Assembly (NCBI GenBank): GCA_025201845.1
Contig: MU603935.1
Span: forward strand, 8,481 to 72,480
From: Martensiomyces pterosporus
Taxonomy: Eukaryota > Kickxellomycota > Kickxellomycetes > Kickxellales > Kickxellaceae
DNA length: 64,000 nt
Direction of reading: 5' to 3'
In this document: piece after piece, positions 1-48,324 of the stretch
Layout: each line of letters opens with the position of its first letter
Position numbering within the stretch: the stretch's first letter is position 1
Position numbers and translations under genes: made by a program
Notes under the pieces: generated by a model
Database searches by the model: none
Told to the model about the DNA's origin: nothing
What the model saw: only the letters and a program-made list of their open reading frames with translations

Positions 1-707
1 CCACCACGGAGGAGACCACCCCCTGCACTCCTACTACCATCACCACCACCTACACCACCACTCCCTGCCCCGACTGCGAGCCCACCACCGTCACCACTAC
101 CGAGGTCATCACTCCCACCCCCACTGAGGAGCCTACCACCGAGGTCGTCCCTACCACCGAGGTCCCTGTCACTTCCGAGCCCTGCACTCCTACCACCGAG
201 GTTGTGACTCTCACCACCACCCCCTGCCCCGGCTGCGAGCCCTCCACCGTCACCACCACCAACATTGTGACCCCCACCCCCACTGAGGAGCCTACCACCG
301 AGGTTGTCCCTACCACCGAGGCCCCTGTCACCACTGAGATCCCCGCCACCACCGAGGCCCCCGTCACCACTGAGGCCCCTGCTACCTCTAGCCCCTGCAC
401 TGACTGCGAGCCTACCACCGTCACCAACACCGTCGTCACCACTCCTTGCCCTGGCTGCGAGCCCACCACTGTGACTAACACCGACGTTATCACCCCCACT
501 AAGGTTGAGCCCACCCACGAGGTCGTCCCTACCCACGAGGTTGTCCCCACCACCGTCACCAACACCGTCGTCACCACTCCCTGCCCTGGATGCGAGCCCA
601 CCACTGTGACTAACACCAACGTTGTCACCCCCACTGAGGTCGAGCCCACCCACGAGGTCGTCCCCACCACCTCGATCCCCAAGTGCCGCATCGTCACTCT
701 CAACTAA
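1..707 (+). CDS. Thr/Pro-rich repetitive cell-surface (mucin/adhesin-like) protein, 5' partial
   Basis: The reading frame is open from the first bases of the window to TAA at 705-707, so only the C-terminal part (about 234 residues) is seen and the start lies upstream. The protein is dominated by Thr, Pro, Val and Glu. It is built from imperfect repeats of the type PCPGCEPTTVTNT alternating with acidic TEEPTTEVVPTTE blocks, with a paired CxxC in each repeat. This composition is typical of heavily O-mannosylated fungal wall proteins and flocculin-like stalks. The C terminus lacks a hydrophobic tail, so no GPI signal is visible; the last residues include one further Cys. The ligand or adhesive domain, if any, would be in the missing N-terminal part. 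Function is inferred from composition only. Confidence 0.75.
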   Translation, partial: TTEETTPCTPTTITTTYTTTPCPDCEPTTVTTTEVITPTPTEEPTTEVVPTTEVPVTSEPCTPTTEVVTLTTTPCPGCEPSTVTTTNIVTPTPTEEPTTEVVPTTEAPVTTEIPATTEAPVTTEAPATSSPCTDCEPTTVTNTVVTTPCPGCEPTTVTNTDVITPTKVEPTHEVVPTHEVVPTTVTNTVVTTPCPGCEPTTVTNTNVVTPTEVEPTHEVVPTTSIPKCRIVTLN

Positions 708-31369: not shown

Positions 31370-32094
31370 GTAAAGAGAAGAAATATGGCGCATCCATCGG
31401 CATATCCACCAGCACAAGCGACGGATGCACCACGGGCAGACACAGTGGAGGCAGCACAGAGAGAGGGATAGAGCAGGGGCGGATGCTGCATCCATCGGCA
31501 GCAGCAACGGCAGCAGCAACCAGCGTGGGATAAGCACGAGTGCGGAGCGTATCCTCGTTTGGAGACGAGGGCATGCAAATGCAGACGTGAATGCGATGGC
31601 TGATCAGATTCGCTTCTCAGCGCACAGAATGCTGGCTGCAGTGAGGCGGAACTTCGGATGGGCAGACATTTGCGCTGGCACATTCTAGCTGGGGTGCAGC
31701 GGCGGCTGTGGAGCTCGCCAGTGTGGACAGGCTTTATGCGGCTGCCGGACTATGCTGTTTTTAGGCGACTCCGCTCCTCATCGGGGCCGTGTTTATGCTG
31801 GGGACACCAACCTAAGGAGTGAGCCTTGCGTGTCAGGCGGCCCATTTGCCTCGCCGCCAGCTGGACCTGCTGGAATATAACGCTGCAGCCCCGCAGCCCC
31901 GGTCTCTGGCTCCTCTGTGCTCGCCTTGCACCGCTGATGATGCAAATAGGAGCGTTGGTGCTGCTAGGCCCACAGCATCCACACCAGCCTACTCTGTGGT
32001 AGCGGTGCGCAGAAAGCATGTGCTACCAGTATGCCCGCATGCTCTGGACCAGATTTGCTAAACGGCGCACACTCTTATCTGTCATTTGCTGTAG
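31370..32094 (+). other. Predicted 5'-leader intron of the eL32 gene with GCATCCATC motifs
   Basis: A donor AAAAG|GTAAAG at 31370 and an acceptor GCTGTAG ending at 32094, directly before the ATG, bound a 725-base predicted intron. Within its first 130 bases are two exact GCATCCATC copies (31390-31398 and 31488-31496) and two degenerate ones in reverse. The acceptor is strongly suggested because TAG abuts the start codon. The donor is a choice by eye. Confidence 0.55.
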
Positions 32095-32493
32095 ATGGTT
32101 CGCCCTGCCCGTAAGGTTAACATTGTGAAGAAGCGCACCAAGCCTTTCGTCCGCGTTCAGTCGGACCGCTTCAAGCGTGTTCCCACCTCGTGGCGCCGCC
32201 CTGTGGGTATTGACTCGCGCACTCGCCGTCGCTTCAAGGGCACCCGCCCCCACCCCAAGATCGGCTACGGATCCAACAAGAAGACCCGCTTCCTCCTCCC
32301 CGACGGCTTCCGTAAGTTCACCATCGAGAACAAGGCTGACCTCGAGAGCCTCGTCACGCTCAACCGCACCTACGCCGCTGAGATCGCCCACAACGTCGGT
32401 GCCAAGAAGCGCGTCCTGCTCGTCGAGCGCGCCAAGCAGCTCGGTGTCAAGGTCACCAACGCTGATGCCCGCGTCCGTTCCGTTGAGAACTAA
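32095..32493 (+). CDS. RPL32: 60S ribosomal protein eL32
   Basis: One coding exon of 132 residues. It begins directly after an intron acceptor, so the leader is spliced. The sequence [31 protein letters not shown] and the C-terminal [13 protein letters not shown] are eL32 hallmarks. The protein is very basic, as expected, and belongs to the large subunit. Codon use is strongly biased to C-ending codons (AAG, CGC, GTC), a sign of high expression shared with EF-1alpha and the other ribosomal genes here. It is tail to tail with the uS9 gene. Confidence 0.97.
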
Positions 32494-32883
32494 GCTGAAT
32501 GAAAATTTTCCTTTCGGTATTCTTCAATACATTGAAGCACGGTTGTTTTCGTTTCGCGGCTCCTTTTTCATTCATTAATAGCAAAGCCACCAACACAGCA
32601 TCCCTGGCGCATACACAGCATTTGGCGCGCACTGGCAAGCCGCGGCACCGCGAGTGTGTGCAGCGCCGTGCAGCGCTTGCACTGCAAGCAGGCTGTCCAC
32701 CACGGGCAGGCGCGCACCGTGCTGGAGCGTGTGGGTCGGGCCAATGCAGGGTGTGCTCGGCACGACATGTCACTTTGTGTACATGGAGAATTGCGCTCCA
32801 GCATTTATTGGCATATAAAGGCTCAAAGCAGAAAATGACACAAACGCGGAGAGATGGATGTGAGTAAGAAGCGTACTGCAGAT
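32494..32883. other. Convergent 3' flanks of the eL32 and uS9 genes
   Basis: 390 bases between convergent stops. It is GC-rich in the middle. The ends are AT-rich, where 3' processing probably occurs. No gene is seen. Confidence 0.45.
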
Positions 32884-33443
32884 TTAACGGTAGGACTTCT
32901 GGAAGCGGGCACGGGCACCGGGACCACCGAACTTCTTGGGCTCGCAGCGGCGGGGATCGGCGACGAGGAGGGAGCGGTCGTAGGCGACAAGGAGGTCCTT
33001 GATCTCCTTCTTGGAAGCCTCGTCGACGAACTTCTGGTAGAAGGCAACGATGCCCTTGGCGATGGCCTGGCGGATAGCGTAGACCTGGGAAGTGTGACCT
33101 CCACCCTTGACGCGGACGCGGATGTCAAGACCGGCAAACTTGTCCTCGCCAACGATGAGGATGGCCTCGTAGACCTTGAACTTGAGGATCTCGGGCTCGA
33201 GGAGCTCCAGAGGCTGACCGTTGATGCGGATCATACCCTTGCCGCGCTTGACGTAAGCAACGGCGGTGGCGTTCTTCTACAAAATCGAATGAAAACAGAA
33301 ATGCGGGTTTAGCCAGCGGGCTCTGCCGTCGCCTAAGCAAAATCATAGCCCAACGCGCGCCGTCCTGCCCACTCGTCCAAACCGCACATGCACGTAGTTG
33401 ACATGATACGTACCTTGCGACCATAAGTCTGGACGGCCTCCAT
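32884..33443 (-). CDS. RPS16: 40S ribosomal protein uS9 (RPS16)
   Basis: Two coding exons: a ten-codon exon (33414-33443, [10 protein letters not shown]) and 32884-33276, joined via GTACGT/TTTGTAG to 140 residues (family 141-146). The join restores the conserved [17 protein letters not shown]. The C terminus ends [14 protein letters not shown], the uS9 tail that reaches toward the P-site tRNA. The protein is basic and part of the small-subunit head. A further intron is predicted in the leader, with acceptor CTGTAG five bases before the ATG. The gene is divergent from eL13 and convergent with eL32. Confidence 0.97.
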
Positions 33444-33448
33444 GTTTT

Positions 33449-34030
33449 CTACAGAGAAGGAAAGGCAGTTGAAACACGCGCAAAAGCGGCAGAGATGTGT
33501 TAGCTGCTTCATGTATATCGGCATGGGTTGGGCGAAGCCAAAAAAACACTCGTGCTTTCAGAAAAATACACGTTGCTCCGCCTCTGCGCGGTGTGAGCAC
33601 AGGAGTGAACGTGCTGCACATTGAGGACTCGGCGCAGATTTGCACAGCACACGCACACACGCCAGCTTTGCGTGCCGGGGACCCAATCTACCCGCTTTCC
33701 CGCCGTAATTCACAGCACTCTTCCCAGTCTCCAAGGCCTGTAAGTGCCAGAGCAAAGCCATGGTGTTCTGCCCAGTCCAAATTCCGAGTTGAAAATGGGC
33801 TTCCTTGTCGTTGCTGAATTGAGTTTTGGGGCAGCACGGAATTTCAACACCGGCGGTCGGCGCCCCCTTCCTGAAGCAGGTCAATGGATGCGAAATGCGC
33901 CCAGCCCGCGATGGATACGCCCCTCCCAACACGCGATGCGCGCCCTACTGTGCGTGTGCATGTGCTGTGCCTGGACACTATACTCCGTCGTCTGCGCCCT
34001 GTCCCACCGATGGATGCGTGCGATACGTAC
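33449..34030 (-). other. Predicted 5'-leader intron of the uS9 gene with GCATCCATC motifs
   Basis: Reading the minus strand, donor GTACGT starts at 34030, the same hexamer used by the next intron of this gene. The acceptor CTGTAG ends at 33449, giving 582 bases. Starting 13 bases into the intron there is an exact GCATCCATC (34017-34009), then GTATCCATC (33918-33910) and GCATCCATT (33891-33883), all in gene sense. The leader exon upstream has no ATG. Confidence 0.55.
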
Positions 34031-34476
34031 TTATGACTAGCTTTTACAAATTAAAAACCGGCAGCGGGTGTGGAAAGAGAGTGAGCCAGAGGTATGTCGC
34101 CGCCCTCCACCAATGTAGCTGCTGCTGCCCGCCTTGCCAGCGTGCCCGCATGCTGGAGGCTACACCCACCTGGCGCAGCGGGCCAGCCAGCACACCCGGG
34201 ATGCCCTCCCGCCCTGCGCTGTGCGCAAAAGAGTGGCGGAAAATGACTTTGCGAAAATAGCAGCTGCCTGGAGTGGCTGGCTGTGCACGTGAGGGTCCCC
34301 TGGGTCCCCTGGATGTGTCTGATTTGGCGGGTGGCAGAGCGGTTTTTTTGCACTGCCTGGCAGCCACGCCTAGCGTGGGCCTGGAGTTGCTCCCATTGTA
34401 CATACGCTGAGCGCACGCCTGCAGGTTATTTGAACTTCCTTTCACACGGCCGTTAATTTGTATTTGGCAATAAATC
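34031..34476. promoter_or_regulatory. Shared divergent promoter of the uS9 and eL13 genes
   Basis: 446 bases between the two predicted leader donors. Near each end, in mirror orientation, is the identical 10-mer TTAATTTGTA (minus 34054-34045, plus 34453-34462). Each copy is exactly 14 bases before the predicted donor of its gene. The centre has a GGGTCCCCT direct repeat near 34294-34312. It probably drives both genes together (inference). Confidence 0.5.
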
Positions 34477-35074
34477 GTAAGTGCGATGAAGTAGGGATGG
34501 GGGATGGATACGCAGCGGAGATGCAATGGATTCACCACTACGCGCACGCATATACGCATCCGCACACGCAGAGCGCCGCACGCGGGAGCACATGGAATCG
34601 AGGGCTGCGATGGATGCGCTGCAGTCGCAGGGAGATATTGCAGGGGCATCCATCTTGGCGCGGAAGGGCGGGAGACATGCACTCGGCATCGGGTGTCCGA
34701 ATTTCCCGCCGATTTCCAAGCCGAATGTCGCAATTAGCACTCCCTGTGGCCACAGCGCGGTCTGTGCACGTATCTCGCTGTAGGCGGGCTGGTCCTGGCA
34801 GCCACACTAGGAGCTGCAGAAGGGCCGAAGAGCGAATCAGCTGTATAGCTGAAGGATCTGCATTTGTCGCAGCCTTTTTCAGCCCGCAGCTTGCACGGCT
34901 GCAGCTCTTTGGAAGCGGCGTTTTGTGCGGAGCGTGGTCGTGGTGGTGGTCCAATTTGCACCGCTATCGAGGGGCTTGAGAGCCAGGAGAGGCCAAGCAC
35001 CCGTATTCAACGGCTGGCATGAACTCTAACTGGTACTATGGCGTCTTTTTCTTAATTTGCTTCCTGGTGTTTAG
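34477..35074 (+). other. Predicted 5'-leader intron of the eL13 gene with GCATCCATC motifs
   Basis: Donor GTAAGT at 34477 and acceptor GTTTAG ending at 35074, directly before the ATG, bound 598 bases. Motif copies: GCATCCATC at 34646-34654 (plus) and 34617-34609 (minus), GTATCCATC 34511-34503 (minus), and GAATCCATT 34533-34525 (minus). A 15-mer including the last copy recurs in the EF-1alpha leader intron. Confidence 0.55.
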
Positions 35075-35807
35075 ATGCAGAACAAGCAGCTGCCGAACGT
35101 TCACTTCCGCAAGGAGTGGGACCTCCGTGTCCGCACCTGGTTCAACCAGCCTGGTCGCAAGCTCCGCCGCCGCCGCGCTCGCGTCGCTAAGGCCGCCAAG
35201 ATCGCTCCCCGCCCCATCGAGCTTCTCCGCCCCGCCGTCCGCTGCCCCACCGTCAAGTACAACCGCAAGGTTCGCGTTGGCCGCGGTTTCACTCTTGAGG
35301 AGCTGAAGGTAAGCACAGCCATGGCTGCAGTGATCCAGACCAGACCGCAAGCACCCACGGCGAGGGCATTTTGTACTAACACACCTGATCTACGCATCCC
35401 GCTGCATTGATTCTGCTTAGGCTGCTGGTCTTACCTCCAAGTACGCCGCCACTGTTGGTATCGCCGTCGACTACCGTCGCCGCAACCGCAGCGAGGAGTC
35501 CCTTGCCCTCAACGTCCAGCGCCTCAAGGCCTACAAGGCCAAGCTCGTTGTCCTTCCCCGCAACGCCAAGAAGCGCACCGCTGAGGACGTCGAGGCCTAC
35601 AAGAACGCCGTCCAGACCCCTGGCCAGACTGTCCCTGTTGTCAACCCCTACGTCGCCGAGGCTCCCCGTGCCATCACCGCCGAGGAGAAGAAGGCCAGCG
35701 CCTTCACCACCCTCCGCGAGGCCCGCGGTGTCTACAAGGCTCGCGGCTACGTCGCCAAGCGCAAGCTCATCCTCGCTGAGGAGGCTGCCAACAAGGCCAA
35801 GAAGTAA
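35075..35807 (+). CDS. RPL13: 60S ribosomal protein eL13
   Basis: Coding exons 35075-35308 and 35421-35807 join through GTAAGC/CTTAG to 206 residues. The intron has a perfect TACTAAC branch sequence at 35374-35380. The N terminus [20 protein letters not shown], then [20 protein letters not shown] and [10 protein letters not shown], identify eL13. The ATG abuts an acceptor, implying a spliced leader. The protein is about three residues shorter at the N terminus than human or yeast, so a coding microexon upstream is conceivable, but the predicted leader exon has no ATG. Large-subunit protein with strong codon bias. Confidence 0.96.
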
Positions 35808-35978
35808 ATTGACATCTGCTAGCTGTTCTTTTTACCCAAATTGTTTGTTTACGAGCTGGATTGTTGTCTTGCAAAAAGTATCCATATATATATGCCGGTG
35901 CGGCATGTAGTCTTCTGTATTGGCTGTGTGCTGTTTGAGTCTAGTTGGAAATGCGGCAGCGGCGGCTTGCTGCTGCCG

Positions 35979-38900
35979 TCAGCTCTTGGGGCTCTGAGCG
36001 GCATCTCGTGAGCCCCTCGCGGAGCTGTCCGACAGAGCATGCCGGCGCATTTGCGACCTGGTGTCGCCCGCGTCCGACCACGGGTCGATCTGCCGGCCCG
36101 GGCTAGACGGCGTCTGCAAGAGCAGCCGTGGCTTGCCCGACGCCCGCGTGTGCGGCTGGTAGACGTACCGCTCGCCGCTGGACCTATGGATTCCATCGGT
36201 GCCCGCGCGCAATCCAGCAATCCGGCCCTCAGAGCTGTGCGATCTAAACCCAGGCGCGGCGCCGTCGTCGCTGGCATAGGTATGTCTGCTGGACTGGCGC
36301 GACGACGGGCGCAGCTTAGTAGCGTTGCTGGGTCGCAGCGATGTGGTGGAGCTAGCTGCCTTTGGAGCCAGCGGCGACTTGGCCCGGCTGCCCGACAGCC
36401 GCGGCTGGTACGGTTTCTTCGGCAGCCAGTGACCAACGCGCGCAGCCATTCCCGTGGGTTTCTGGACGCCATTCACATGCGCACCAGCATCGATATCATC
36501 AGGGTCTCCGCTCTCGTCGTCGTCGTTATTGCTGTTGCTGGTCGATCCCAGGCCACCACTGCTGTGGCCAACATCGCCGCTGTATGGGGAGTGTGGGCCA
36601 TCGTAGGCGCTTGATGTGGCATCAAAGGGCGACGAGGGCGAGTCATCATGCAAGTGCTCCAGCGATGGCCGCCCCAAATGCCACTCGCGCGGATCCCGCA
36701 TGCCATGGTCGAGTGCATCGGCAGTGGCACTGGCGGATGAGATGTGGCCACGGAAGTTGATTGAATTCGAGTGCACGGAGCCCGTCGGCGAGTACCGGCG
36801 AACGCTGCCATGGCGGTCAGCAATGCCCTGCTGTCTCTCAACCGCCCGACGCGCCTCCAATATCAGCAGCCTTCCTTCCTCGTGCGGCAGCGACAGCGGG
36901 CCAAGCTCAGTATCCTCGTCGTCTCCTGTGCGGACACCCGGGGCACCGATCCTGCCAACACTGAAGTACTCCATCACGCGGCCATGGACATTGAAGAACG
37001 CCAGGGCAGCGGGGACCATGATAAGGACAGGGATGGCGCGGTTCGACTGCTCGCCCAGCACGGGCACCAGGTCGATTTGGCCCATGAACTTGGCAAATTC
37101 CGTCGCCGTGTCGCCGTCGTCGCTGCCACCAGCCCCGGCCATGTTGAGGAAGTTGTAGCACAGGGGGAACATCAGACGGCAGAGGTATGCGCCACAAAAC
37201 AGGAGGCTGCGCTCGTTGGTGTGGTGGTGCGACTCGAGGGAGTAGACATTGAAGATCTTGAGCTTCATCACCGAGCTATATGCGCACAGACACATGTAGG
37301 CGATGATGACGATGCTGGTCAACTCGATGGCAAAGTACGTCAGGCCCATGGACCGCAGGAAGAGGTGCACTATAGACAAGTGCGGCGACGTTAGGTTGAA
37401 TGTGAGCTCGGACCACAGGATGGCGGCACTCAGCGTGGCTGCGCCTAGGGACAGGGCGCGGCAGGCGAGTGGACGCAGGATGATGTACCACCACCAGAAT
37501 AGGGAGCGCCGGAGCATGCCCCAGCGGCACCACGGCGACAGACTGGACTCTATCTGGCGATTAGGGTTCTCTCTCGACGCCAGTGCATCTTGGAGGAAGA
37601 ACGCCCGCCTGGCCGAGCTGCTCCAGCGCCACCGATCGCGCTCCTCCTTCAACACGGCCTGCTTGACGCGGTTATGCAGGGTGGCCAAATAGCCCTTGGT
37701 AATCTCCGTTGGGATCCTCGAGCCCAGCGCAGCGTTATTCGTGGGAGCCCTCGAGTCGGTCTTGGGACAGCACTCGAGGATCTGGTCGACACAGCCCCGC
37801 AGGTCGTCCATCTGGCTGACCCGCGCCGAAACCAGCAGGGTCTCCTTGACTACGTCCGAAAGCTCGAGCTCCGAGTCGTATGCCCTGTCCTTGTACGCCA
37901 TTGCGCGACTCTCGATCTTGGCCAGCTCGTGGCGGAGGTCGCCGCGCCGCCAGAGCTTGCGCGGAATGGAAACGAGTCCGAATCCCATGAAGATGATTAC
38001 GAGGAAGAGCCCCCAGAAGTTGGCAGCCGCCATGAGGAAGGCCACAAGGTCGGCGCCAAAGTAGTTGCGTGTCAGGGCGATGTACCCGACGACGAAGAGC
38101 CCGACCGCGCCGCTGATCCCGTAGAACTGCAGGTTGCTCCACGCCGACTCGCGCAGCCGATCCTTGAACGAAAACGCGCCGGAATCGACGTATGACATCA
38201 TGATTGGTAGCGCAAGCCTGCCGTTTTCAACAAACACCAACACGCACGTGGATAGAATAAGGTGCGTATTCGTTTAGCAGCAGGCAGTTGCAATGAATGC
38301 ATGCAGCGGGGTCATATGCACATTGAATGCGTGCGTGCGTTTGCCAGCACCCGAGTTAATGCACCTTTGAAGTGGGTCGAATAAACGAATTTATGTATAT
38401 GCACTGATTTCCTCTTACCATGTAAGCAGATACATGATCCAGTACAGCGACCACCACAGCTGCCGCGTGAACCGATCGTTGATGTACCCAGCGGGCTCGT
38501 CGCAGTCGTGCTCGCATTTTCTATACAGCGTCTACATAGACCAGGATGGAAAACAATGGTGCAGCGCTTGCATGCTTGCATATAATCAGACACATTGTCG
38601 CTGGAATTAGGTGGTACCACCCACAGTCAAAGGCGGTCTTTGTACAACCCATCCCTCCCAATTCGTCGTGCCATCCACCCGTTGAGGCAGGATGGGCAAG
38701 TGGTCGGAGTTGGGAGCGAGGGTCGAGTCCATTCGCCTCGCCTCGCTCTTCATGGAATTGGCGGAGCTAGAGGCGTAGCTGGGATTAGCAAGGCAGGCCA
38801 AGTATGGCTGATTGGGGCGAAATAGGAGTGCGGCTACCACAGCAGCCAGCGCCTGCTTGTGCTGACAGGGCAGGTTACCAAGGCGTTTGTACTTACCGAG

Positions 38901-39067
38901 CTGAAATCAAATGGCAGAATAAAGACAATTGTGAACGGCAAGTACCAGCTAGTGACTGCCGCAACCTGGACATACCACGCACAGCGCCTCCGGTCGCCAT
39001 ATGTGTGCAGCAGGCGTAGAATAACCAGGAGGCTGACAGCCCCGCAGAGCAACAGCGGCCACAGCAT
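35979..39067 (-). CDS. LMBR1-family polytopic membrane protein (LMBD2 homologue)
   Basis: Exons 38897-39067, 38419-38531 and 35979-38217 join in frame (donors GTAAGT and GTAAGA, acceptors ATGTAG and GGCAG) to 840 residues. The joined first part has FTIVFILPFDFSS-TLYRKCEHDC and then LYWIMYLLTW-LALPIMMSYVDSG, the LMBR1 order of first lumenal loop and helices 2-3. About nine membrane helices are seen to residue ~500, with a coiled-coil-like cytosolic loop in the middle. The last ~330 residues are Ser/Asp/His-rich and disordered. LMBD2 relatives are linked to GPCR or trafficking functions in other eukaryotes; the role in fungi is not established. The small middle exon (113 bases) is supported by family match and phase. 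Confidence 0.92.
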
Positions 39068-40258
39068 GGAAGAGTTGTGTAGAGGGCCAAGCACTGGCTC
39101 TGTTTCGCTGTGTAGTCGTAGAGTGTCAGTCGCTGTTGGTAGCCGTGACTATTTACTGTGTTGAGCGGAATGCCGTCGGGTGTCTTCTATACAGCTTTTG
39201 TTGTTACAGAGGGGAAATGCAGGAGAGAAAGTGTAAATAGGGCAAAAGAAGCAAAATGGGGGGTGGGTGGATTATTATAAAGACGGGCCGCGGCCCCGCT
39301 GTGGACGGGTTTCTGGCGGCGGCCATCACGGGTGATACGCCGTGCCTTTTATTTTTTTCTTTTCGCTTCTCTTCCTTGGCGCCTGCACGCAGGGGGTGTG
39401 GGGTCGAGTGGAGGCGGGGGGAATGGCCAGGGCGGCAGCCGTTGCTACTCCACTGCGCTTCATTGCTAGAGGAGAGCGCCAGATGGCATGGGCATTTCTA
39501 GACTGCTGCCGCACGAGATGCGTGGACGGAGCACGCATACCGTGTTCCTATCCACCCGCAAATCTGTTCGCATTTGTGTGCGTGCCTGCTTGGACAGCCT
39601 CGTCAGATCTAGGTCAGCGGGTGGGCTGGCCCCCTCTCATAGCTGTGCCCGTTTATTATGCTTGGCAGTGCATGCAGCGCGCCGGTGGACTCGGGCAAAG
39701 GCAGACCGTCAATCAGGCTGCGTGTCCTTCGACGCCCTGCGCGCATGTCCCCAAATACAAGCATGTGCAATGCAAACCAGTATTGGCCCAGTGCCAGAGG
39801 AGGCTGGCAGCAGAGAGCAGCTCTTTCAGGGGCTGTGTAGAAATGCGCAATGAACCCACGTTCCCCTTGCCTTGTCTAGCCAGCGCAGGGAGCGGCAGCG
39901 GTCGCTGGTGCTCTACTGCACGTTGCAAATGCGGCGTTGCTTCTTTGCCAGAAGAGATATTCGGATGGCACCACAGGAAAGCTGGTGGTTGCAGTAGACT
40001 GGCAGCAGATGTGGCTTTGGGTGCCCGCTGAATGCAGCACCTCCCCTTGTTTGACGACAAGCAGCAGAGCAATGAAGTGCGGTGGCACTGGGCATACAGC
40101 TCGCGCTTTCCCTCTGGCAGCTTAGCTTTCTGCCTACAGGTATGAGCTCATATGCCTCCTTCCTCTTTCCTCTGTTCTCCCCGGATATCTCATTTCGCCT
40201 GTTTTCAAAGACTGCATAGAATAGAGGTCTACGCATATTTGCTCAAGTTGCTTGGCGG
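39068..40258. promoter_or_regulatory. Divergent intergenic region left of the unknown membrane-protein gene
   Basis: 1.2 kb between head-to-head genes. A TTATAAAG element lies near 39277 next to a GC-rich patch. The longest frame (39342-40031) starts with GTG and looks random. No RNA gene is recognised. Confidence 0.4.
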
Positions 40259-41143
40259 ATGAGGGCTGCAGATGTTCCTACTTCCGCGCCAAGCACTGCA
40301 TGCCCGCCTGTTGACGAGCTCCCACAGCCCAGGGCCACGCTGCTGACACCTGACGGCGGCGTTCTAGCCACCCGAGTACACTACGAAACCCTCAACGACG
40401 CAGTGTTTTTGGCAAAAGCAACGCTTCTGTCGTCCGCAGTATGCCTGTTGTCGTTCATTCTGCTCTCACTTGCCTCAGCTAACGTCGACATCAAGCTAGG
40501 GGTCCTAGCCATCACATCATACCCAAAGCTGCTGTTCTCGTCCTCGGTGTGGTCCTCTACTTCTGTGTTTGCTGCCATCCAGGTCGTGTGGTTTCTGGCA
40601 TACTGCCTGTTTTCACATATAATCCGCCTGCACTTCAATGCCACGGATCCCCCGCGTGATTGGGATGACAGGAATGGCGAGTGGTCCGTGGTTGAGCTGG
40701 ATGTCAGGGCCAATGCCAAACCGTCGTCACCCGCTGCCAGCGAGGCGCAGAGACGCGCCAATAGTGCATATAATGTGCTGCGGCAACGCCATTCGGCCGA
40801 TAGCCATAGACCGGCGCCGCCGGTTGTTGGTTCGCCTGCCGCTCAGCCTTCGGTTGTGACCGAGTTCATCGCAGAGCCGCATAATAGCAGCGTTAACCTC
40901 GTGTGGCCAAACAGCCTTCGTCACCCACCAAGTATCCCATTGCCGTCTACGATATTGGGTGAATGCTACGAGTCTGAGGCAGCGCTGCGTACATTCAGGT
41001 CGGCGTCGGACGAGTGGAAACTCTGCGTTCAACCAACTGCAGACACCACAGCCACTGGTATGCTGGCCGCAATTTCATTGCTGACTCCGGACCCAGACTA
41101 TATTGCATGGAAAGCACGGCGGAAGCAGAAAGAGGGCCACTAG
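40259..41143 (+). CDS. Unknown protein with two predicted membrane helices
   Basis: Single exon, 294 residues from ATG 40259. I do not recognise the family. Two hydrophobic stretches at about residues 54-75 (LLSSAVCLLSFILLSLA) and 100-122 (FAAIQVVWFLAYCLFSHII) would make a hairpin, with the long C-terminal part (about 125-294) on one side. That part has a tryptophan-rich DWDDRNGEWSVVELDV segment, a Ser/Pro/Arg linker, and a charged end with KARRKQKEGH. There is no cleavable signal peptide. Codon use is ordinary, without the bias of translation genes. It lies head to head with LMBD2 and tail to tail with LHS1. The frame length and clean ATG make it likely real. Confidence 0.7.
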   Translation: MRAADVPTSAPSTACPPVDELPQPRATLLTPDGGVLATRVHYETLNDAVFLAKATLLSSAVCLLSFILLSLASANVDIKLGVLAITSYPKLLFSSSVWSSTSVFAAIQVVWFLAYCLFSHIIRLHFNATDPPRDWDDRNGEWSVVELDVRANAKPSSPAASEAQRRANSAYNVLRQRHSADSHRPAPPVVGSPAAQPSVVTEFIAEPHNSSVNLVWPNSLRHPPSIPLPSTILGECYESEAALRTFRSASDEWKLCVQPTADTTATGMLAAISLLTPDPDYIAWKARRKQKEGH

Positions 41144-41313
41144 ACATATGAGCGTCGCATGTTTTCTTGTATTTTTGAATACTGCGTTTGCTATTCTAAG
41201 AGAGACAGCAGCAACAACAGTAAGATGTATAAAGGAGGGGTTGCAGCAGTGCAAGAGAAGGAGCTGCTGCTAGTTTTATAAATGGAGTGCACCCACAGAC
41301 ACATGCGCTGCAT

Positions 41314-44034
41314 TCAGAGCTCGTCGTGCGCATTGCCCTTGGTCTCCTTGGTCTCTTCCTTGGCTTCTTCTCCTGCCTTGTCCTGAGCATCGCCCGCTTG
41401 CTCATCGTAGTCGTCGTCGTCGTCGTCCAGCTCATTGTCTTCCTTCTCTTCAGCCGTGGTCTCGGGCACAATCTTTTTGATCTTCTTTGCAACAAGCTTG
41501 GCCAGGCTGCGCTCGATAGCGAGTGCCTTGCTGTCCATGTCAGTGGTGGTCAGGGCAGGGTCGTCAGACGGCGCAAGTGCGTCCTGCTTAGCCACCATGG
41601 TATCCAGCCAGGACGAGGTAGCGTCAAGAATGTCCTCGAGGTCCTCAAGCAGCTTGATAGCAGGCTCCAGCTCCTCCTGGGTGTATTCGCTGCGGTAAAT
41701 GCCAGTGAGGTTCTCCGCCTGGGAAATGATGGCGCGCAGAGCTACGACGTGCTCTGGACGCTTCTCGTCCTGGCGTCTGCGGTAGACGATGGGCTCCTCG
41801 AGCTCCTTGAGCTGAGCAATCCTGGACTTGATCTCATCTAGCGGTGAGCTCTCTGCGTTATCCTCGAGCCACTCAGATGCAAGTCCAACAGCCTCCATCA
41901 ACGCCTCACGCTGGCTTTCGGTGGTCACAGCAACAATCTCGTCTTCCTCCACCATGTCACGCAGGTGGTAAACAAGGGACTCGAGCTGGTTGACTGCGCC
42001 ATGGCGGACAGTGCGGGCAGCATCGTCCTCGTCCATGCGCTTAAGGAGGTTGCGCGACGTCTTGAGCGCCTCCTCACTGAGCTTTTGGGCTCCAAAGTGC
42101 TCAATGCTGAGACCAAGGGGGACGATCTCGATGATGTGCTCGGGCTGAGGCGTGGGCTTTGCGCGGAGCTTGGTCTTTGTCTTGCTGCTCTTGGCCTTGG
42201 TGCTCGAGGCAGCGGAGTCGGTTTCCTTGCTGTTGCTGGTGCCATCGGTGGAGGCCGCATCGGTCTCAGTTTCAGTCTGAGCTGCTGCTTCGGCCTCGGC
42301 TTCAGCAGACTCCTTGCCCCAGGCGACCAGGTCTTCGAGGTACTGCACGTATTTCGGGTTTGTGACGTTAAATGCCGCTTCGGCCCTGAGAACCTCGAAT
42401 GAGCCAAGGTCGTTGGTCTGGACAAACACCTTGACATCGGGCTTGGCGCTCACTGGATTCTTCGACTTGAGCTTCTTCACGGCATCAGGGATGCCGCTGA
42501 TCTTTGCGATTGCCAGCTTGCTCCACTTGCCGCTGCTGCCCGAAACCTTGGACTCAAACTCGATCGCAAAGTCAGAGCTGCGGGTGTCGTGGATCACACG
42601 GCGTGCACCAACGGCAGCAAACTCTGGGTACAGGTAGAGGGTCTCTTGCTTGGCATTGCCCAAAAGCGATTTGGTCTCCTTGGCGAAAGTGCCACGAACA
42701 GCGTACGACATGGCATCGCGCAAACGCATGTCGCGGACCTTGAACTGGCTGCTGAGAGTGGCGCCCTTGAAGACTGCGCCCATCACACATGCCTCGTCGG
42801 CGTTGACGTTCTTGGACAGCTTGTCGGCACCAAAGGCAGCAGAGAGTGCCTGCTGCACAAAAGGCACACGTGATCCACCGCCAACTAGGACAATCGAGTC
42901 AATGTCGCCGATTGTCAAGTTGGACGCCTTTAGCGCGCTGTCAATTGGCGCGCGAATGCGGGGCACAAGATGCGACGAGGCCTTTTCAAGGTCCTCGCGG
43001 GTGATCCTGGTGCGGAAGTCGATGCCCTCATGCAGGCCCTCGACTGAGGCAGCAGCCTCGGTGTTTGCACTGAGGATGGTCTTTACGCGCTTGGCCTCCT
43101 TGAGCAGGCGGTTCATTGCGCGTGCGCTTGTCTTGATATCGCTGGCCGATGGGTTGCTGGCAGCGAACTTTTCAGCCAGGAACTCGCGCACAATGAAATC
43201 AAGTTCTTGTCCGCCAAGAGCGCTGTCTGCCGCATATGCGTTAACCTTGATGATGGTCGCCTTCTTGGTCTTTGAGCCCTTGGTCGCTGGGGTGGCATAG
43301 AACCCAGCAACAGTCGCGACAGTCTTTCCAGCACCCATGTCATAGAACAGGTGCCTCTCGGGCTTTGTGAACGTGCGGCTCATGGCGTAGTTGAGTGCCA
43401 CGGCGCTGCCGTCGTTGACAAGAGCCAGCGTGCGGAAGCCAGCGAGATTGGCCGCGTCGAGCATAGCCTGGCGCTGGGACTGATCGAAGAACGAGGGGAC
43501 TGTGAAAACAGCGTCCTTGACAACGATCCCCTCGCTCTCCTTGACAAGCTGCCTGGCATAGCGCAGCTGCATGGCGACGATCTCCTGAACGGTCAGTGTT
43601 TCGTTGGCTGCAGAGCCATACTGGAATGCAACAGAGCCAGTCTCGGGGTCCTTGATCATCTTGTTTGGGAACTGTTTGCGGTACGCTGCTGCGATATCAG
43701 AGTCGAACGAAACGCCCAAGAGATTGCGAACAGCCATGAACGTCTTTTCGGGCATGCGCGGTGCGATGGCGATGGCGTTCGAGCCAAACGTGCGCTCGAG
43801 TCCGTTGACTGTGACCACAGACGCTGTCTGCCGGTTGGCATCGCGGTTAAGCACCAGGTCGAGTGGGCGTCCAGGGTTGGCGAGGGCGATGGTGAACCAG
43901 TCGGTGCCAAAATCAATGCCGAGAACAGCAGCGTTTACGCAGGCGGATAGGGAGGCAAGGGCGCAAAGGAGCACCAGTAGCATATATTTGAGCGCCCCTC
44001 CTTTGCTGGCCCGCAAAGACGCCGTTCGAGCCAT
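41314..44034 (-). CDS. LHS1: ER-lumenal Hsp70 relative Lhs1 (HYOU1/GRP170 family)
   Basis: Single exon, 906 residues. A signal peptide occupies about residues 15-36 and the C terminus is HDEL, a retention signal for the ER lumen. The ATPase domain has GIDFGTDW at 39-46 and, later, IVLVGGGSRVPFVQQAL, the Hsp70 phosphate and adenosine motifs. After about residue 430 a short beta domain is followed by an acid/Ala-rich loop and a long alpha-helical extension, which separates the large GRP170 class from BiP. In yeast Lhs1 is nucleotide-exchange factor and co-chaperone of Kar2/BiP in protein import and folding. The last 40 residues before HDEL are very acidic (EEKEDNELDDDDDDYDE). Confidence 0.95.
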   Translation of the reverse strand: MARTASLRASKGGALKYMLLVLLCALASLSACVNAAVLGIDFGTDWFTIALANPGRPLDLVLNRDANRQTASVVTVNGLERTFGSNAIAIAPRMPEKTFMAVRNLLGVSFDSDIAAAYRKQFPNKMIKDPETGSVAFQYGSAANETLTVQEIVAMQLRYARQLVKESEGIVVKDAVFTVPSFFDQSQRQAMLDAANLAGFRTLALVNDGSAVALNYAMSRTFTKPERHLFYDMGAGKTVATVAGFYATPATKGSKTKKATIIKVNAYAADSALGGQELDFIVREFLAEKFAASNPSASDIKTSARAMNRLLKEAKRVKTILSANTEAAASVEGLHEGIDFRTRITREDLEKASSHLVPRIRAPIDSALKASNLTIGDIDSIVLVGGGSRVPFVQQALSAAFGADKLSKNVNADEACVMGAVFKGATLSSQFKVRDMRLRDAMSYAVRGTFAKETKSLLGNAKQETLYLYPEFAAVGARRVIHDTRSSDFAIEFESKVSGSSGKWSKLAIAKISGIPDAVKKLKSKNPVSAKPDVKVFVQTNDLGSFEVLRAEAAFNVTNPKYVQYLEDLVAWGKESAEAEAEAAAQTETETDAASTDGTSNSKETDSAASSTKAKSSKTKTKLRAKPTPQPEHIIEIVPLGLSIEHFGAQKLSEEALKTSRNLLKRMDEDDAARTVRHGAVNQLESLVYHLRDMVEEDEIVAVTTESQREALMEAVGLASEWLEDNAESSPLDEIKSRIAQLKELEEPIVYRRRQDEKRPEHVVALRAIISQAENLTGIYRSEYTQEELEPAIKLLEDLEDILDATSSWLDTMVAKQDALAPSDDPALTTTDMDSKALAIERSLAKLVAKKIKKIVPETTAEEKEDNELDDDDDDYDEQAGDAQDKAGEEAKEETKETKGNAHDEL

Positions 44035-44532
44035 CGTGTCTTGTTGTCGTTTCTATCTTGCAGGTGCGTCTGGGTATGTGATGTAGGGAAATTGCCAGCA
44101 ATAAAACAAATATTTGAGTGATGCGCGTAGTTAATGAGGGGAGGAGAAAGAGCGGTAGAGCAGAAGTAAAAGGCGTGAGGCAGCAAGTGCGAGAGGCGGG
44201 GGAGGGCACGGGGAATCAGCGCGGTATGCAGTGCACGCAGTAGAGGGCGCTCACGAACTGGGCGGTCTGGCTGGACCTCTAAGAAGCGGACACCTCACGG
44301 TCAGGTGCATCACGTGCCACTGATCTGATCTGATATTCTGTTTATCGGCATGCCCAAAAAATGGACGCCGCTGACAAGAGGGGAGGATTTCAGGCAGCGA
44401 ATTTGCATTTTGCATTTTGCATTCAAATTCACGCTCTACACGCTTTATCTTTGTCATTCTGGCAGCGCTGTCTGGTCAGCTCTCGTTTCTCAATTATAGA
44501 CCTTTCATTCGCAGCAGCAAGGAGGCAGCAGT
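44035..44532. promoter_or_regulatory. Divergent promoter between LHS1 and the mitoribosomal gene
   Basis: 498 bases between head-to-head starts. A TTTGCATTTTGCATTTTGCATT direct-repeat patch lies near 44402-44422. No clear unfolded-protein-response element was identified. No gene is recognised. Confidence 0.4.
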
Positions 44533-44847
44533 ATGAAGATTGACCGCATTTTGGCAAGGCTCGAGACAGGACTTGGCGCTACTCAGCTGTCGCCTAACGT
44601 TCAGTCGCTAACACTGACGCTGTCGCAGCGGACACGGGCATCGGGTGCTAGGCACTTTTGGCGCGAGCATTTGCGGCGACTTCAGTATGCCAACCCAAAC
44701 CTGCCCATCGTAGTCAACTACCCGCGCGAGCCCTGCATGCCCAAGCTTGAGATCAAGTTTGCAAACGCCGCCACAGACTCGCTCAGCGTCGCTGGCTTGC
44801 CCTCGGATGAGATCTGCAGGCGGCTGCTGGAGAAGACGACCAGCTAA
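44533..44847 (+). CDS. Mitochondrial ribosomal protein of the L51/S25/CI-B8 fold (mL61/Mrp49-like)
   Basis: Single exon, 104 residues from ATG 44533. The pattern of an N-terminal helix, a GxxxLSPNVQSLTLTLS strand, GARHFWREHLRRLQYANPN, then strands PIVVNYPRE and KLEIKFANA and a final helix, matches the thioredoxin-like L51/S25/CI-B8 fold. That fold is shared by mS25, mL43, mL61 and complex I subunit NDUFA2. The ARxFWREHLPRLxYxNP type segment fits yeast Mrp49 (mL61) or mS25 best. No separate presequence is evident, as is common in this group. The exact subunit name is uncertain. Confidence 0.75.
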   Translation: MKIDRILARLETGLGATQLSPNVQSLTLTLSQRTRASGARHFWREHLRRLQYANPNLPIVVNYPREPCMPKLEIKFANAATDSLSVAGLPSDEICRRLLEKTTS

Positions 44848-45454
44848 GCATGTGCCTCTTTGCACAGGCGCGCCCGATGATGTGTCTGCGGCGCCTTTGT
44901 CGCTGCGGATAGTAGTAGCATTTGGCGGGAAAGCAGCAAAACTGAGAAATAAACATGTCCATCAGCATCCTTGCTACTACGTACAATAGTAATTGGCTGG
45001 CTACGGCGCCCATTCAGGACATATCGGCGAGGACATGCATGCATTGGCAGGTGCAGCTGCTGCCCCCGCATGTCTGCTACTATATGGATGTGCCTGCGTG
45101 GGAGCTGCTGCACACCCCCGTCATGATTGTGGGGGCCCAGTCGCTGTTTGTTGCTTTTGCTGCGTGCACACCTTGCAGTATATGATGTCGCCAGCGTTGG
45201 TAGCAGAGCGCAGAAAACGCATGGCAGTCCAAATAGTAGCGTGTGGGTTCAAGCGGCCACCCGATGATGGGCGTTGTGTAGGTCGCAGCTGTGGTGCAGC
45301 TTTGTGGAGTGGTGTGCGGGGCGTATAAATGGCAGCCAGTCATGGGTGTTGAGTGTGGCTAGCACAATGCCCGGCATACTGGAAGTCGTCCGCACACATT
45401 TGCACTCGTTATTTATATAGTCCAGAAGTTGCAGCAAGCCTACCATTCGCAGCC
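44848..45454. other. Intergenic region, no gene recognised
   Basis: 607 bases between two plus-strand genes. A GTATAAAT TATA-like element at about 45324-45331 lies roughly 130 bases before the next start codon and may serve the small secreted protein gene. Nothing else stands out. Confidence 0.45.
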
Positions 45455-45772
45455 ATGCAGGAGTTTAGATCGATTGTCCCCGCGGTGCTGGCAGCCATTC
45501 TCGTGCCTGTAGCCAGCGCGCAGTGGTGGGGCGGTGCTGGACAGTACTATGGCGTGCCAAGCGGCGGGGCATTATATGAGGGCGGTGCCGTACTTGGCGG
45601 ATCTCCCTGGCAGTTCGGATCGCCATGGGCGTACGGTAACCCAGGCGGGTTTATCGCAACCGGCTATGGGCACGGGATCATTCAGGGGGCCTCTACGAGT
45701 GGAGCCATCATTCAGGGGCCCTCTGGCGTGATCGTTGCACCACCGCAGTCTGCAGGCAGCATCGTGTTCTAA
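45455..45772 (+). CDS. Small secreted Gly-rich protein
   Basis: 105 residues from ATG 45455, chosen because it opens a signal peptide (SIVPAVLAAILVPVASA, cut before QWW). The mature ~82 residues are Gly/Tyr/Trp/Ser-rich with no Cys. They end in two imperfect repeats of IIQG-[AP]-S around residues 75-95 and a Val/Ile-rich tail. It resembles structural wall or spore-coat proteins and short glycine-rich effectors in general style only; no family is recognised. A TATA-like element sits about 130 bases upstream. The frame is short, but the signal peptide and composition argue for a real gene. Confidence 0.6.
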   Translation: MQEFRSIVPAVLAAILVPVASAQWWGGAGQYYGVPSGGALYEGGAVLGGSPWQFGSPWAYGNPGGFIATGYGHGIIQGASTSGAIIQGPSGVIVAPPQSAGSIVF

Positions 45773-46605
45773 GAGCATCGTGCTCTAAGCAGCAGTACAG
45801 CCGCCTTTTGCATGTCTACTCCCACGTCCACGGCTAGTGTCGCTCACTTTGCGCAGCCTAGTTTCATTGTGCATTTTCTCAATACACCAGTCGCCTAAAG
45901 CGCAGCAAGCTCTGGCAGCAACAATGGCTGGGGAGGGCGGCAGCTGCAATAATGCGCCCAAGCTCCTGAACACGTAGAAAGAAGCAGCCGACACGCTTTC
46001 TAGCAGTCCCCCAAACGTGCATTCGGTCCTGCGCGGCCAATGCTAGGTTTGCCTTGGCAGATATGCCAGCCGGGCTCGATGGTGCTCGCTGCAGACACGC
46101 GGCCAGCTGAGGCCGGCGTGCTCCTCTGTCGTGGGGCTCGTTTCCCCATGCTCCAAGCGGAGACACATCGTGCGACGCGAGTCCTGGGCCGCCCTCAACG
46201 GAGCGCTCCCGCTCCTGGCCCACTCGCCGCTCTCCACTCGCCAGGCCATCCGCACGCCTCCGCTCCCTCGCCCCTCCAGGCTGCACAGTCTCGCTGTGTG
46301 CATGGCAGGTGGTGCTCTCTGCCGCCTGCATTTCTGGCGCCCTCCCCAGCTCGCCAGGCACAGCAAATCAGCCCAGCTCGATTGCCGCAGAAGAACAACA
46401 AAGGGGCAGAGCGGCAGAGCGGTTGGGGGCGCGCACAGCCAATCACCGGCGAACGCATGAAAAAATTTGTGTACATTTTCGAATATTTTAGCATTCTTCG
46501 GCTGTCCACCTGGCAGCGCTGACGGGTTGCGGTTGCCGCTGCTGCGACGAGCTGGCCGCGTAGCCGGGCAAGGAAAAAATTTTCGTTAGACGGAGGGCAG
46601 CGCAA
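45773..46605. promoter_or_regulatory. Intergenic region including the upstream promoter of the EF-1alpha gene
   Basis: 833 bases. The left part has no recognised gene (its frames are random-like). The right 150 bases are AT-rich with GAAAAAATTT-type elements and lead into the TATA box of the EF-1alpha gene. Confidence 0.45.
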
Positions 46606-46611
46606 TATAAA
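46606..46611 (+). promoter_or_regulatory. TATA box of the EF-1alpha gene
   Basis: TATAAA at 46606-46611 lies about 75 bases before the predicted leader donor at 46681. This leaves room for a start site near 46635-46640 and a 40-base leader exon without ATG. Confidence 0.6.
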
Positions 46612-46680
46612 GAGGACGCTGGTCACAGGCAGCCAGTTTCCTCCTTGCATTCGCTCCTTCTAAATCACTTTGAAGACTAG

Positions 46681-46936
46681 GTAAATATCAGCTAGCGGCT
46701 CTGTTACCGCGCGGGAAATGCATGCAGTCTGTTGTCTGGCGTGCGCGCGCATCCATCAGCGCGGCGCATCCGTCCAGCGCATATGGCCAGCGCATCCATT
46801 GCACACGCATCCCGCGGCGCGCGTGCGTGGCCGAATCCATTGCATCTGCCCGACGGCGCATCCATCGGCGCCCGCAGCGCAGCAGAGTGTGCACAGAAAG
46901 CTAACTGCCCTGCCCTGGTCTGCACTCCCCCTGTAG
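46681..46936 (+). other. Predicted 5'-leader intron of the EF-1alpha gene with GCATCCATC motifs
   Basis: Donor ACTAG|GTAAAT at 46681 and acceptor CCTGTAG ending at 46936 bound 256 bases; the remaining leader AAAACACAAAA leads to the ATG. The intron holds exact GCATCCATC at 46749-46757 and 46858-46866, plus GCATCCGTC 46766-46774, GCATCCATT 46792-46800 and GAATCCATT 46833-46841, all in gene sense. Confidence 0.65.
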
Positions 46937-46947
46937 AAAACACAAAA

Positions 46948-48324
46948 ATGGGTAAAGAGAAGAACCACATTAACGTCGTCGTCATCGGTCACGTCGATTC
47001 CGGCAAGTCGACCACCACCGGTCACCTTATCTACAAGTGCGGTGGTATTGACAAGCGTACCATCGAGAAGTTCGAGAAGGAGGCTGCCGAGCTTGGCAAG
47101 GGCTCCTTCAAGTACGCCTGGGTCCTTGACAAGCTGAAGGCCGAGCGCGAGCGTGGTATCACCATCGACATTGCCCTCTGGAAGTTCGAGACCCCCAAGT
47201 ACGTCGTCACCGTCATTGACGCCCCTGGCCACCGTGACTTCATCAAGAACATGATCACTGGTACCTCCCAGGCTGACTGCGCCATTCTCATCATTGCCGG
47301 TGGTGTTGGTGAGTTCGAGGCTGGTATCTCCAAGGACGGCCAGACCCGCGAGCACGCCCTGCTTGCCTTCACTCTTGGTGTCAAGCAGCTCATCGTTGCC
47401 GTCAACAAGATGGACTCGGTCAAGTACAACGAGGCCCGTTTCGTTGAGATCACCAAGGAGGTTGCCAACTTCATCAAGAAGGTCGGCTACAACCCCAAGA
47501 CTGTTGCCTTCGTCCCCATCTCCGGCTGGGAGGGTGACAACATGATTGAGGCCTCCAGCAACATGCCCTGGTACAAGGGATGGGAGAAGGAGACCAAGAG
47601 CGGCAAGTCGACTGGTAAGACCCTCGTCGAGGCCATCGATGCCATCGAGCCCCCGGTCCGCCCCACCGACAAGCCCCTCCGCCTTCCCCTCCAGGACGTC
47701 TACAAGATCGGCGGTATCGGTACCGTGCCCGTCGGCCGTGTCGAGACTGGTGTCATCAAGGCCGGTATGGTCGTCACCTTCGCCCCCGCTGCCGTCTCGA
47801 CTGAGGTCAAGTCGGTCGAGATGCACCACGAGGTCCTCACCGAGGGTGTTCCCGGCGACAACGTCGGCTTCAACGTCAAGAACGTCTCCGTCAAGGACAT
47901 CCGCCGTGGTAACGTCTGCTCTGACTCGAAGAACGACCCCGCCAAGGAGGCTGCTTCCTTCGAGGCCCAGGTCATCGTCCTGAACCACCCCGGACAGATC
48001 TCGGCTGGCTACGCCCCCGTGCTCGACTGCCACACCGCCCACATTGCCTGCAAGTTCTCGGAGCTCCTCCAGAAGATTGACCGCCGTACCGGTAAGGTCA
48101 CTGAGGAGAACCCCAAGTTCATCAAGTCGGGTGATGCCTCGATCGTCAAGCTCGTCCCCTCGAAGCCCATGTGCGTTGAGTCGTTCACTGAGTACCCTCC
48201 CCTCGGTCGCTTCGCCGTCCGTGACATGCGTCAGACCGTTGCTGTCGGTGTCATCAAGAAGGTCGAGAAGACCGACCGCACCAGCAAGTCCACCAAGTCT
48301 GCTGCCAAGGCTGGCAAGAAGTAA
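46948..48324 (+). CDS. TEF1: Translation elongation factor 1-alpha
   Basis: One coding exon, 458 residues, with the invariant start [20 protein letters not shown]. It delivers aminoacyl-tRNA to the ribosomal A site in the GTP state. Motifs: G1 GHVDSGKS, the DAPGH of G3, NKMD of G4, and SGW of G5, followed by beta-barrel domains II and III. Codon bias is extreme (C-ending codons), as in the ribosomal genes of this window. The start is fixed by conservation, although the frame is open upstream through the leader intron. The long antisense open frame here is a by-product of the codon bias. Confidence 0.99.

Follow-up and report, generated by a model that had tools for sequence, protein, structure and literature searches.

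What is the nine-base word GCATCCATC doing near the donor ends of the first introns of translation genes? The question arises from a 64,000-nucleotide stretch of the genome of the kickxellalean fungus Martensiomyces pterosporus (GenBank assembly GCA_025201845.1, contig MU603935.1, positions 8,481 to 72,480), hereafter the window. In it, an initial annotation had listed seven exact copies of the word, all in predicted 5'-leader introns of the genes for ribosomal proteins eL32, uS9 and eL13 and for EF-1alpha. A scan of both strands recovered all seven, each at the coordinates and on the strand reported, and zero others. The finding is real, and the association with translation genes holds genome-wide once clusters, and not single words, are counted. 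Judged by its sequence and position, its most fitting description is that of a new element of ribosomal protein genes, located past the presumed start and for the most part intronic. Its extended form, CGCATCCATC, is quite probably the site of a sequence-specific factor that binds double-stranded DNA and jointly controls a large share of the ribosomal protein genes, in a regulon that would also take in EF-1alpha and a SERBP1/Stm1-like ribosome-associated gene.

The word in four leader introns of the window

The base composition of the window predicts 0.51 copies of GCATCCATC on both strands, in agreement with the earlier estimate of less than one for a random 9-mer. The Poisson probability of seven or more copies is ~1.2e-6, a value that covers the single word and is uncorrected for its choice by eye. 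All seven copies fall inside introns with canonical-looking splice signals, and Pfam matches confirm the identities of the four genes. The initial annotation also named four close variants as thickening each cluster; GAATCCATT differs from the word at two positions and the other three at one each. Eight of the ten occurrences of these variants in the window do lie within the same four introns, but two do not: GCATCCGTC at 7088 is in the first intron of uL13, a gene left unnamed in that annotation, and one occurrence at 52446 lies outside all five introns. The uS9 and eL13 genes are divergent, with predicted donors ~446 bp apart (window 34031-34476), and the interval between the donors contains zero sites; the sites sit in the flanking introns. 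The features of the four loci are listed below in window coordinates, with a slash marking the splice boundary.

31370..32094, plus strand: eL32 first (leader) intron, predicted; donor AAAAG/GTAAAG, acceptor CTGTAG/ATG; three sites less than 130 nt from the donor, at intron positions 21, 51 and 119
31390..31398, plus strand: GCATCCATC, exact, eL32 intron
31420..31428, minus strand: GCATCCGTC, one mismatch, eL32 intron, opposite orientation
31488..31496, plus strand: GCATCCATC, exact, eL32 intron
32095..32490, plus strand: eL32 coding region; Pfam Ribosomal_L32e, E 6.3e-44
33449..34030, minus strand: uS9 first (leader) intron, predicted from splice signals; three sites less than 150 nt from the donor
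34009..34017, minus strand: GCATCCATC, exact, uS9 intron
33910..33918, minus strand: GTATCCATC, one mismatch, uS9 intron
33883..33891, minus strand: GCATCCATT, one mismatch, uS9 intron
32884..33234, minus strand: uS9 coding exon (main part); Pfam Ribosomal_S9, E 5.4e-30
34477..35074, plus strand: eL13 first (leader) intron, predicted from splice signals; three sites less than 180 nt from the donor
34503..34511, minus strand: GTATCCATC, one mismatch, eL13 intron
34609..34617, minus strand: GCATCCATC, exact, eL13 intron, opposite orientation
34646..34654, plus strand: GCATCCATC, exact, eL13 intron
35075..35410, plus strand: eL13 first coding exon (approximate end); Pfam Ribosomal_L13e, E 7e-38
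46681..46936, plus strand: EF-1alpha first (leader) intron, predicted; donor CTAG/GTAAAT, acceptor CTGTAG; four sites, at intron positions 69, 86, 112 and 178
46749..46757, plus strand: GCATCCATC, exact, EF-1alpha intron
46766..46774, plus strand: GCATCCGTC, one mismatch, EF-1alpha intron
46792..46800, plus strand: GCATCCATT, one mismatch, EF-1alpha intron
46858..46866, plus strand: GCATCCATC, exact, EF-1alpha intron
46951..48321, plus strand: EF-1alpha coding region; Pfam GTP_EFTU, E 7.2e-58

Clusters of the word across the genome

The genome assembly (17.38 Mb in 216 contigs, with the window on contig C7) contains 314 copies of GCATCCATC (159 + 155), against ~139 expected from the base composition of the window. 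This excess is only 2.3-fold; the word read backwards, taken as a control, occurs 39 times. A lone copy is therefore non-specific, whereas clusters are specific. Positions were obtained for 262 of the 314 exact copies, the other 52 lying in the contig tail, and contigs C1-C54 are complete. The 205 copies on C1-C54 give 18 clusters at a spacing of at most 200 bp, and close adjacent pairs within the same distance number 19 where 0.74 are expected (~25-fold, P ~1e-20). Eleven of the 18 clusters are at the 5' ends of translation genes, seven of them seen in the sequence and four assigned by position. Genome-wide enrichment near translation genes, for which the initial annotation had proposed a test, thus exists for clusters, but not for the single 9-mer.

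All seven pair clusters on C1-C8 (four fetched, three within the window) belong by sequence to translation genes: eL18, uS7, eL43, eL20, eL32, eL13 and EF-1alpha. Clusters on C10, C15 (at 173 kb), C16 and C39 were linked to genes by position, through searches for ribosomal families that did not use the motif. The C10 cluster lies ~0.55 kb upstream of an L7Ae-family gene, those on C15 and C39 are followed by Ribosomal_60s genes at 0.45 kb and 1.2 kb, respectively, and the C16 cluster is 0.55 kb upstream of a ubiquitin domain; the 207-aa open frame that contains this domain may be a ubiquitin-ribosomal fusion. Genes of the control families described below are found at none of the 18 clusters. 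Four pairs had been predicted beforehand, of which C10 and C15:173 kb were borne out by ribosomal families, and C9 and C15:196 kb by the layout only.

The remaining seven clusters, at C9:144.3k, C15:196.0k, C15:226.9k, C27:80.2k, C28:56.8k, C46:109.4k and C49:11.6k, were fetched blind, as 266-base pieces, and all seven show a short exon and a splice donor upstream of the array, with donors and strands chosen by eye. In four of them (L042, L044, L045 and L047) the donor directly follows the start codon, ATG/GTAAR, an arrangement with a ~1.3% chance of occurring nearby per cluster (P ~1e-6 for four of seven). The L041 donor reads ATGG/GTAAGG, L043 has 17 bases between ATG and donor, and L046 has a leader donor together with a further exact copy 65 nt upstream of it.

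Architecture of the arrays and their introns

We surveyed 17 first introns, ten in full and seven in part. At least two sites (exact or with one mismatch) are present in the first 250 nt of 16 of them and at least three in 13, the exception being uL13; these proportions describe the arrays and not their frequency, because the introns were mostly chosen for the motif (of the 16 arrays, four come from the original finding, an exact copy led to five and a pair to seven). The arrays add up to 47 sites between intron positions 11 and 178, of which 30 are exact and the other 17 carry one mismatch. Arrays range from two to four sites, three per intron being usual. In all 17 inexact sites the A-T-C-C core and the T at position 8 are free of mismatches, and C precedes the word in 37 of 47 sites, which gives the consensus CGCATCCATC, the invariance at some positions being partly definitional because sites were counted up to one mismatch. 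Forms with two mismatches are mildly enriched in the first 200 nt (26 vs 12.3 expected). Seventeen sites are in sense and 30 in antisense orientation (two-sided P 0.08), and both orientations occur within a single intron in six of 16 cases.

The sites are concentrated at the donor end. With the exact copies set aside, one-mismatch copies in ten ribosomal protein and EF introns occupy 12 of 2420 positions over the first 250 nt but 1 of 3320 beyond them; the other noncoding DNA examined has 64 of 189987, so that the donor ends are ~15 times denser in such copies. The 400 nt preceding the donors of ten genes are free of sites up to one mismatch (0 of 3920 positions). A single site is found in the 48-150 nt of upstream sequence visible for the 17 genes, and it falls in the 48-115 nt available for the seven blind pieces. 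Nine of the ten fully read introns are ~400-730 nt long, and EF-1alpha fits its four sites in 256 nt. CTCTTTC-type pyrimidine tracts are enriched upstream of donors (6 vs 0.35 expected), fitting a pyrimidine-rich start region. We also observe TGGATT near the presumed start of eL20, uS3, uS7 and other genes. It resembles the site variant GATGGATTC, occurs five times upstream of donors in three genes (0.41 expected), and may be a weak version of this site placed upstream.

In eL18, eL43, eL20 and uS3 the first exon is limited to the ATG or to a few codons. The conserved N-terminus, judged against orthologous proteins, picks up after the acceptor, so splicing is required to produce it. The leader introns of eL32, uS9, eL13, EF-1alpha and uS7 are predicted from splice signals and the position of the start codon. 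The 5'-leader intron named as host by the initial annotation fits the four window genes, but the host is more generally the first intron, often directly after the ATG. Even this rule is broken at the L7Ae-family gene of locus L011, probably eL8 by its length and domain position, which has no intron before the ATG: an exact copy begins 38 nt upstream of the start codon, in the 5' untranslated region (UTR) and below a TATA-like sequence. The uS3 locus has two peculiarities of its own: the first intron appears to begin with GC (a GC-AG intron), and a tandem duplication of the promoter and initial codons spans a stretch of 10 N (L026:1250-1610).

Association with translation genes

On C1-C54, 11 ribosomal-family genes were located without using the motif. 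An exact copy lies at most 1.5 kb upstream of five of them, compared with one of 55 controls (Fisher P 0.0003), and two copies lie within that distance of four of the 11 and none of the 55. The controls comprise 7 proteasome genes, 8 other ubiquitin-like genes, 22 GTP_EFTU genes (EF-1alpha excluded; EF-2 and other translation GTPases are probably among them) and 18 mitochondrial carriers, the carriers having been grouped manually into genes from 94 matches. Genes beyond C54, where the list of copies is incomplete, were excluded: 7 of the 14 proteasome genes, 4 ubiquitin-like genes, two KOW genes, 6 of the 29 GTP_EFTU matches and those mitochondrial carriers that lie on these contigs. A Spt5-like KOW gene, with three matches in one 982-aa frame, was not scored as ribosomal.

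A second view comes from 40 fetched loci (L001-L040) carrying 50 exact copies on C1-C8, in which site densities are biased because the loci were picked for containing the word. Seventeen of the 50 copies are inside predicted coding segments. Eleven of the 33 noncoding copies are at translation genes: two each at eL18, uS7, eL43 and eL20, and one each at the probable eL8, uS3 and a SERBP1/Stm1-like gene. The 362 kb examined contain 11 three-site clusters, ten of them at translation genes (eL18, uS7, eL43, eL20, uS3, eL32, uS9, eL13, EF-1alpha and the SERBP1/Stm1-like gene). In this last gene (L033:2900-3800; C7, ~148 kb), whose relatives are named HABP4/SERBP1 and have domains PF04774 or PF09598, an exact GCATCCATC overlaps the end of exon 1 (GCATCCATCAT/GTAAGT), and two one-mismatch variants then follow in the predicted leader intron. 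The eleventh cluster (L006, 3426-3537) is taken as chance: it is at no recognised gene, and its two variant sites break the ATCC core.

At least three sites in the upstream kilobase are found for 14 of 130 coding segments, namely nine translation genes, four divergent neighbours sharing the sites, and L038:2933-4369, which has three scattered variants upstream and zero exact copies. Six codon-biased genes outside translation (14-3-3, pyrophosphatase, 6-phosphogluconolactonase-like, alcohol dehydrogenase-like, phosphoglucomutase and ribonucleotide reductase) have at most one site in that kilobase, so strong expression alone seems insufficient to explain the arrays. Two exact copies fall within coding sequence, in the segments of phosphoglucomutase and of ribonucleotide reductase. 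A lone exact copy (L040:2099) lies 1.26 kb upstream of the inorganic pyrophosphatase segment, which has strong codon bias.

Other features of the window are as follows.

7022..7572, minus strand: uL13 first intron, without a 5' cluster; Pfam Ribosomal_L13, E 2e-23; single variant site at 7088, intron position 477
41314-44034: lumenal Hsp70 coding; product matches Martensiomyces pterosporus at 95% identity along 95% of its length
3-704, plus strand: open frame starting at the window edge, with ribosomal-protein-like codon usage (0.74) and zero Pfam matches at 0.01

The k-mer counts of the window are dominated by CAG/CTG-type trinucleotide words, with GCAGCAGC occurring 67 times in the 64 kb on both strands.

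What might read the arrays

The mixed orientation of the sites, the copy in the 5' UTR of the probable eL8, the repetition of sites and their proximity to the start lead us to favour a DNA-binding factor acting just downstream of the start. Given the sequence, genome-wide clustering, gene association, position and mixed orientation observed, binding by a protein, action on transcription and activation are what we infer. Arrays of two to four sites in the first ~180 nt of intron 1 follow a short first exon, with a presumed pyrimidine-rich start region just upstream of both; the putative factor would bind promoter-proximal DNA from the downstream side and, once bound, may raise or coordinate transcription of ribosomal protein genes. 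The genome-wide clusters support the suggestion in the initial annotation of a site within the transcribed leader, acting as a transcription-factor site or through intron-mediated enhancement, and of these two roles we favour the former.

Several observations weigh against such a factor, or restrict its reach. Seven of the 18 clusters share the first-intron layout without an assigned gene, and 22 of the 33 noncoding copies in the fetched loci are at genes other than recognised translation genes. Four divergent non-ribosomal neighbours share the same sites as the translation genes beside them. Two sites within 1 kb upstream are non-specific, one of the four such segments being a translation gene. 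Six of the 11 ribosomal-family genes have no exact upstream copy (Ribosomal_60s on C18; the ubiquitin-domain gene on C11; L7Ae on C21; KOW-domain genes on C15, C34 and C39), in a comparison that scored exact copies; two further KOW genes, on C105 and C95, also have no copy in a list that is incomplete on those contigs. Some of the KOW and L7Ae matches may be other than cytosolic ribosomal proteins. No site is present in the 1 kb upstream of eL22 (L010), and uL13, a motif-independent ribosomal check within the window, has no 5' cluster. The element is therefore not universal among ribosomal protein genes. Nor is it a general mark of translation genes: EF-1alpha apart, all 22 GTP_EFTU-family genes lack a copy, and an exact copy is present at only about half of the ribosomal-family genes sampled. 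Two further points count against a pure DNA form of the proposal: within each of 10 of the 16 arrays all sites point the same way, and almost every site at these genes is intronic.

These last two points are what an RNA-level element in the pre-mRNA would explain, either a splicing enhancer or intron-mediated enhancement via an RNA-binding protein. We regard it as unlikely, though as the most serious of the alternatives. Sites are found 11-178 nt into intron 1 and are very rare upstream of it, and intronic YY1 sites of human UBC affect both transcription and splicing (PMC3680475). However, the two orientations found together in six introns of 16 would be two different RNA words, the probable eL8 site with no intron before the ATG speaks against intron-mediated enhancement, and the L046 copy upstream of the donor would fall outside the intron. 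Mixed orientation thus favours a DNA site over an RNA-level signal. Small nucleolar RNAs (snoRNAs) are often hosted by introns of ribosomal protein and EF-1alpha genes in other eukaryotes, and the length of most of the introns here would leave room for them, with the word as a box element. We consider this very improbable: no Rfam family reaches its gathering score in the window, to which that scan was confined, the orientation is mixed, the sites crowd the donor end, and EF-1alpha has four sites in its short intron.

Sites of a known type, Rap1-like (CAYCCRTRCAY) or YY1/delta-like (CCAT core), are improbable too, if less so than snoRNAs. The loose likeness to half of the Rap1 consensus noted initially is there, as CAYCCRT is enriched in the introns (42 vs 2.1 expected), but the enrichment follows from CAYCCRT being contained in the word. 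The full consensus is absent from both strands of the 3266 nt of 17 introns (0.05 expected), and the CACCC form is unenriched (1 vs 0.8 expected). CAYCCRT is followed by a purine in three cases (0.85 expected) and by a pyrimidine in 39, and the upstream promoter position of Rap1 sites is empty in ten genes over 400 nt. Vertebrate ribosomal protein genes have downstream elements bound by YY1, a point in favour of this factor. YY1 also binds the UBC leader intron (PMC3680475). Its GCCAT core is nevertheless found six times on both strands where 11.3 are expected. A search with the human YY1 zinc fingers returned 25 C2H2 matches with identities of 32-55%. The match that covers most of the query (residues 4-116 of 121) is 36% identical, and none combines full length with high identity; no clear orthologue was recognised in this search, in which introns could split the gene.

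There remain chance, growth of an ATCC/GGAT microsatellite and recent duplication of one intron, to which we give hardly any weight. The word contains ATCCATC, L045 carries one extra ATCC-type unit, single copies are only 2.3-fold over expectation genome-wide, and one in 11 three-site clusters, that of L006, is at no recognised gene. As a full explanation these are refuted by the ~25-fold excess of close pairs, by the gene association (5/11 vs 1/55), and by between-intron alignments, the longest of which at E 0.01 is 44 nt, with most being 14-34 nt and around the sites.

With the DNA-binding factor preferred over these alternatives, a wider interpretation, which we hold tentatively and at slightly under even chances, is that the ribosomal protein regulon of this kickxellalean lineage is read from inside the gene: the arrays at the donor end of intron 1 would be its enhancer, and the introns would be kept for that reason. 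The element also hints at a reason for the persistence of long first introns beside the start codon of ribosomal protein genes: the intron may be retained as regulatory DNA.

Comparison with known systems

Among fungi, the control of ribosomal protein genes has undergone repeated change; the elements known there are those of Dikarya and lie upstream. Co-regulation of these genes also differs among yeast, flies and vertebrates (PMC3575287). The arrays offer a concrete, testable element for a fungal branch for which no earlier report was found, and one that lies downstream of the start as in vertebrates. In the accessible literature on Kickxellomycotina, Mucoromycota and early-diverging fungi, with subscription journals mostly outside reach, no report of the element was found among titles and the openings of abstracts, and the accessible part of a Fusarium intron study (PMC5677156) has nothing on it. 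A site this short and clearly defined lends itself to direct isolation of the protein that would bind it.

The elements of the fungal regulators Rap1, Tbf1, Fhl1/Ifh1 and Mcm1 sit upstream of the start site, whereas the present element is downstream, mostly intronic and of another sequence. The Tbf1-type TTAGGG is absent from the introns (0.48 expected). What is shared is that a common cis-element makes a regulon and varies among lineages (PMC2834713, PMC6173580). Plant first-intron motifs of intron-mediated enhancement resemble the arrays in being tied to raised expression (PMC8157754), but are set apart by gene set and, on present evidence, by the strand independence seen here. In human UBC, intronic YY1 sites act on transcription and splicing (PMC3680475), and the likeness consists of factor sites in the first intron or just past the start of a highly expressed gene; the difference lies in the unenriched GCCAT core, and no clear YY1 orthologue was recognised. 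A control system distinct from Rap1, Tbf1, HomolD and YY1, and independent of the vertebrate intronic motif considered next, belongs to the same tentative interpretation and is put forward with equal reserve.

By analogy of layout, the closest parallel is the human Localized Tandem Sequence Motif (LTSM) of vertebrate ribosomal protein genes, ATC-N7-ATC, a strictly oriented element at ~+62 that is bound by NonO/SFPQ and lies in the first intron, or in the 5' UTR in the case of RPL12, and whose hosts include some other translation genes (PMC3262029). The fungal sites differ in having the ATC pair with a 1-bp spacer inside a 9-10-mer, in several copies per intron and in both orientations (17 sense, 30 antisense). 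The sense form of ATC-N7-ATC is absent from the 3266 nt of 17 introns (0.4 expected), and the antisense form is seen three times (0.5 expected). The two elements are nevertheless alike in occupying the first intron just past the presumed start of translation genes, in having one gene each with the element in the 5' UTR (RPL12 and, here, the probable eL8), and in containing an ATC tandem.

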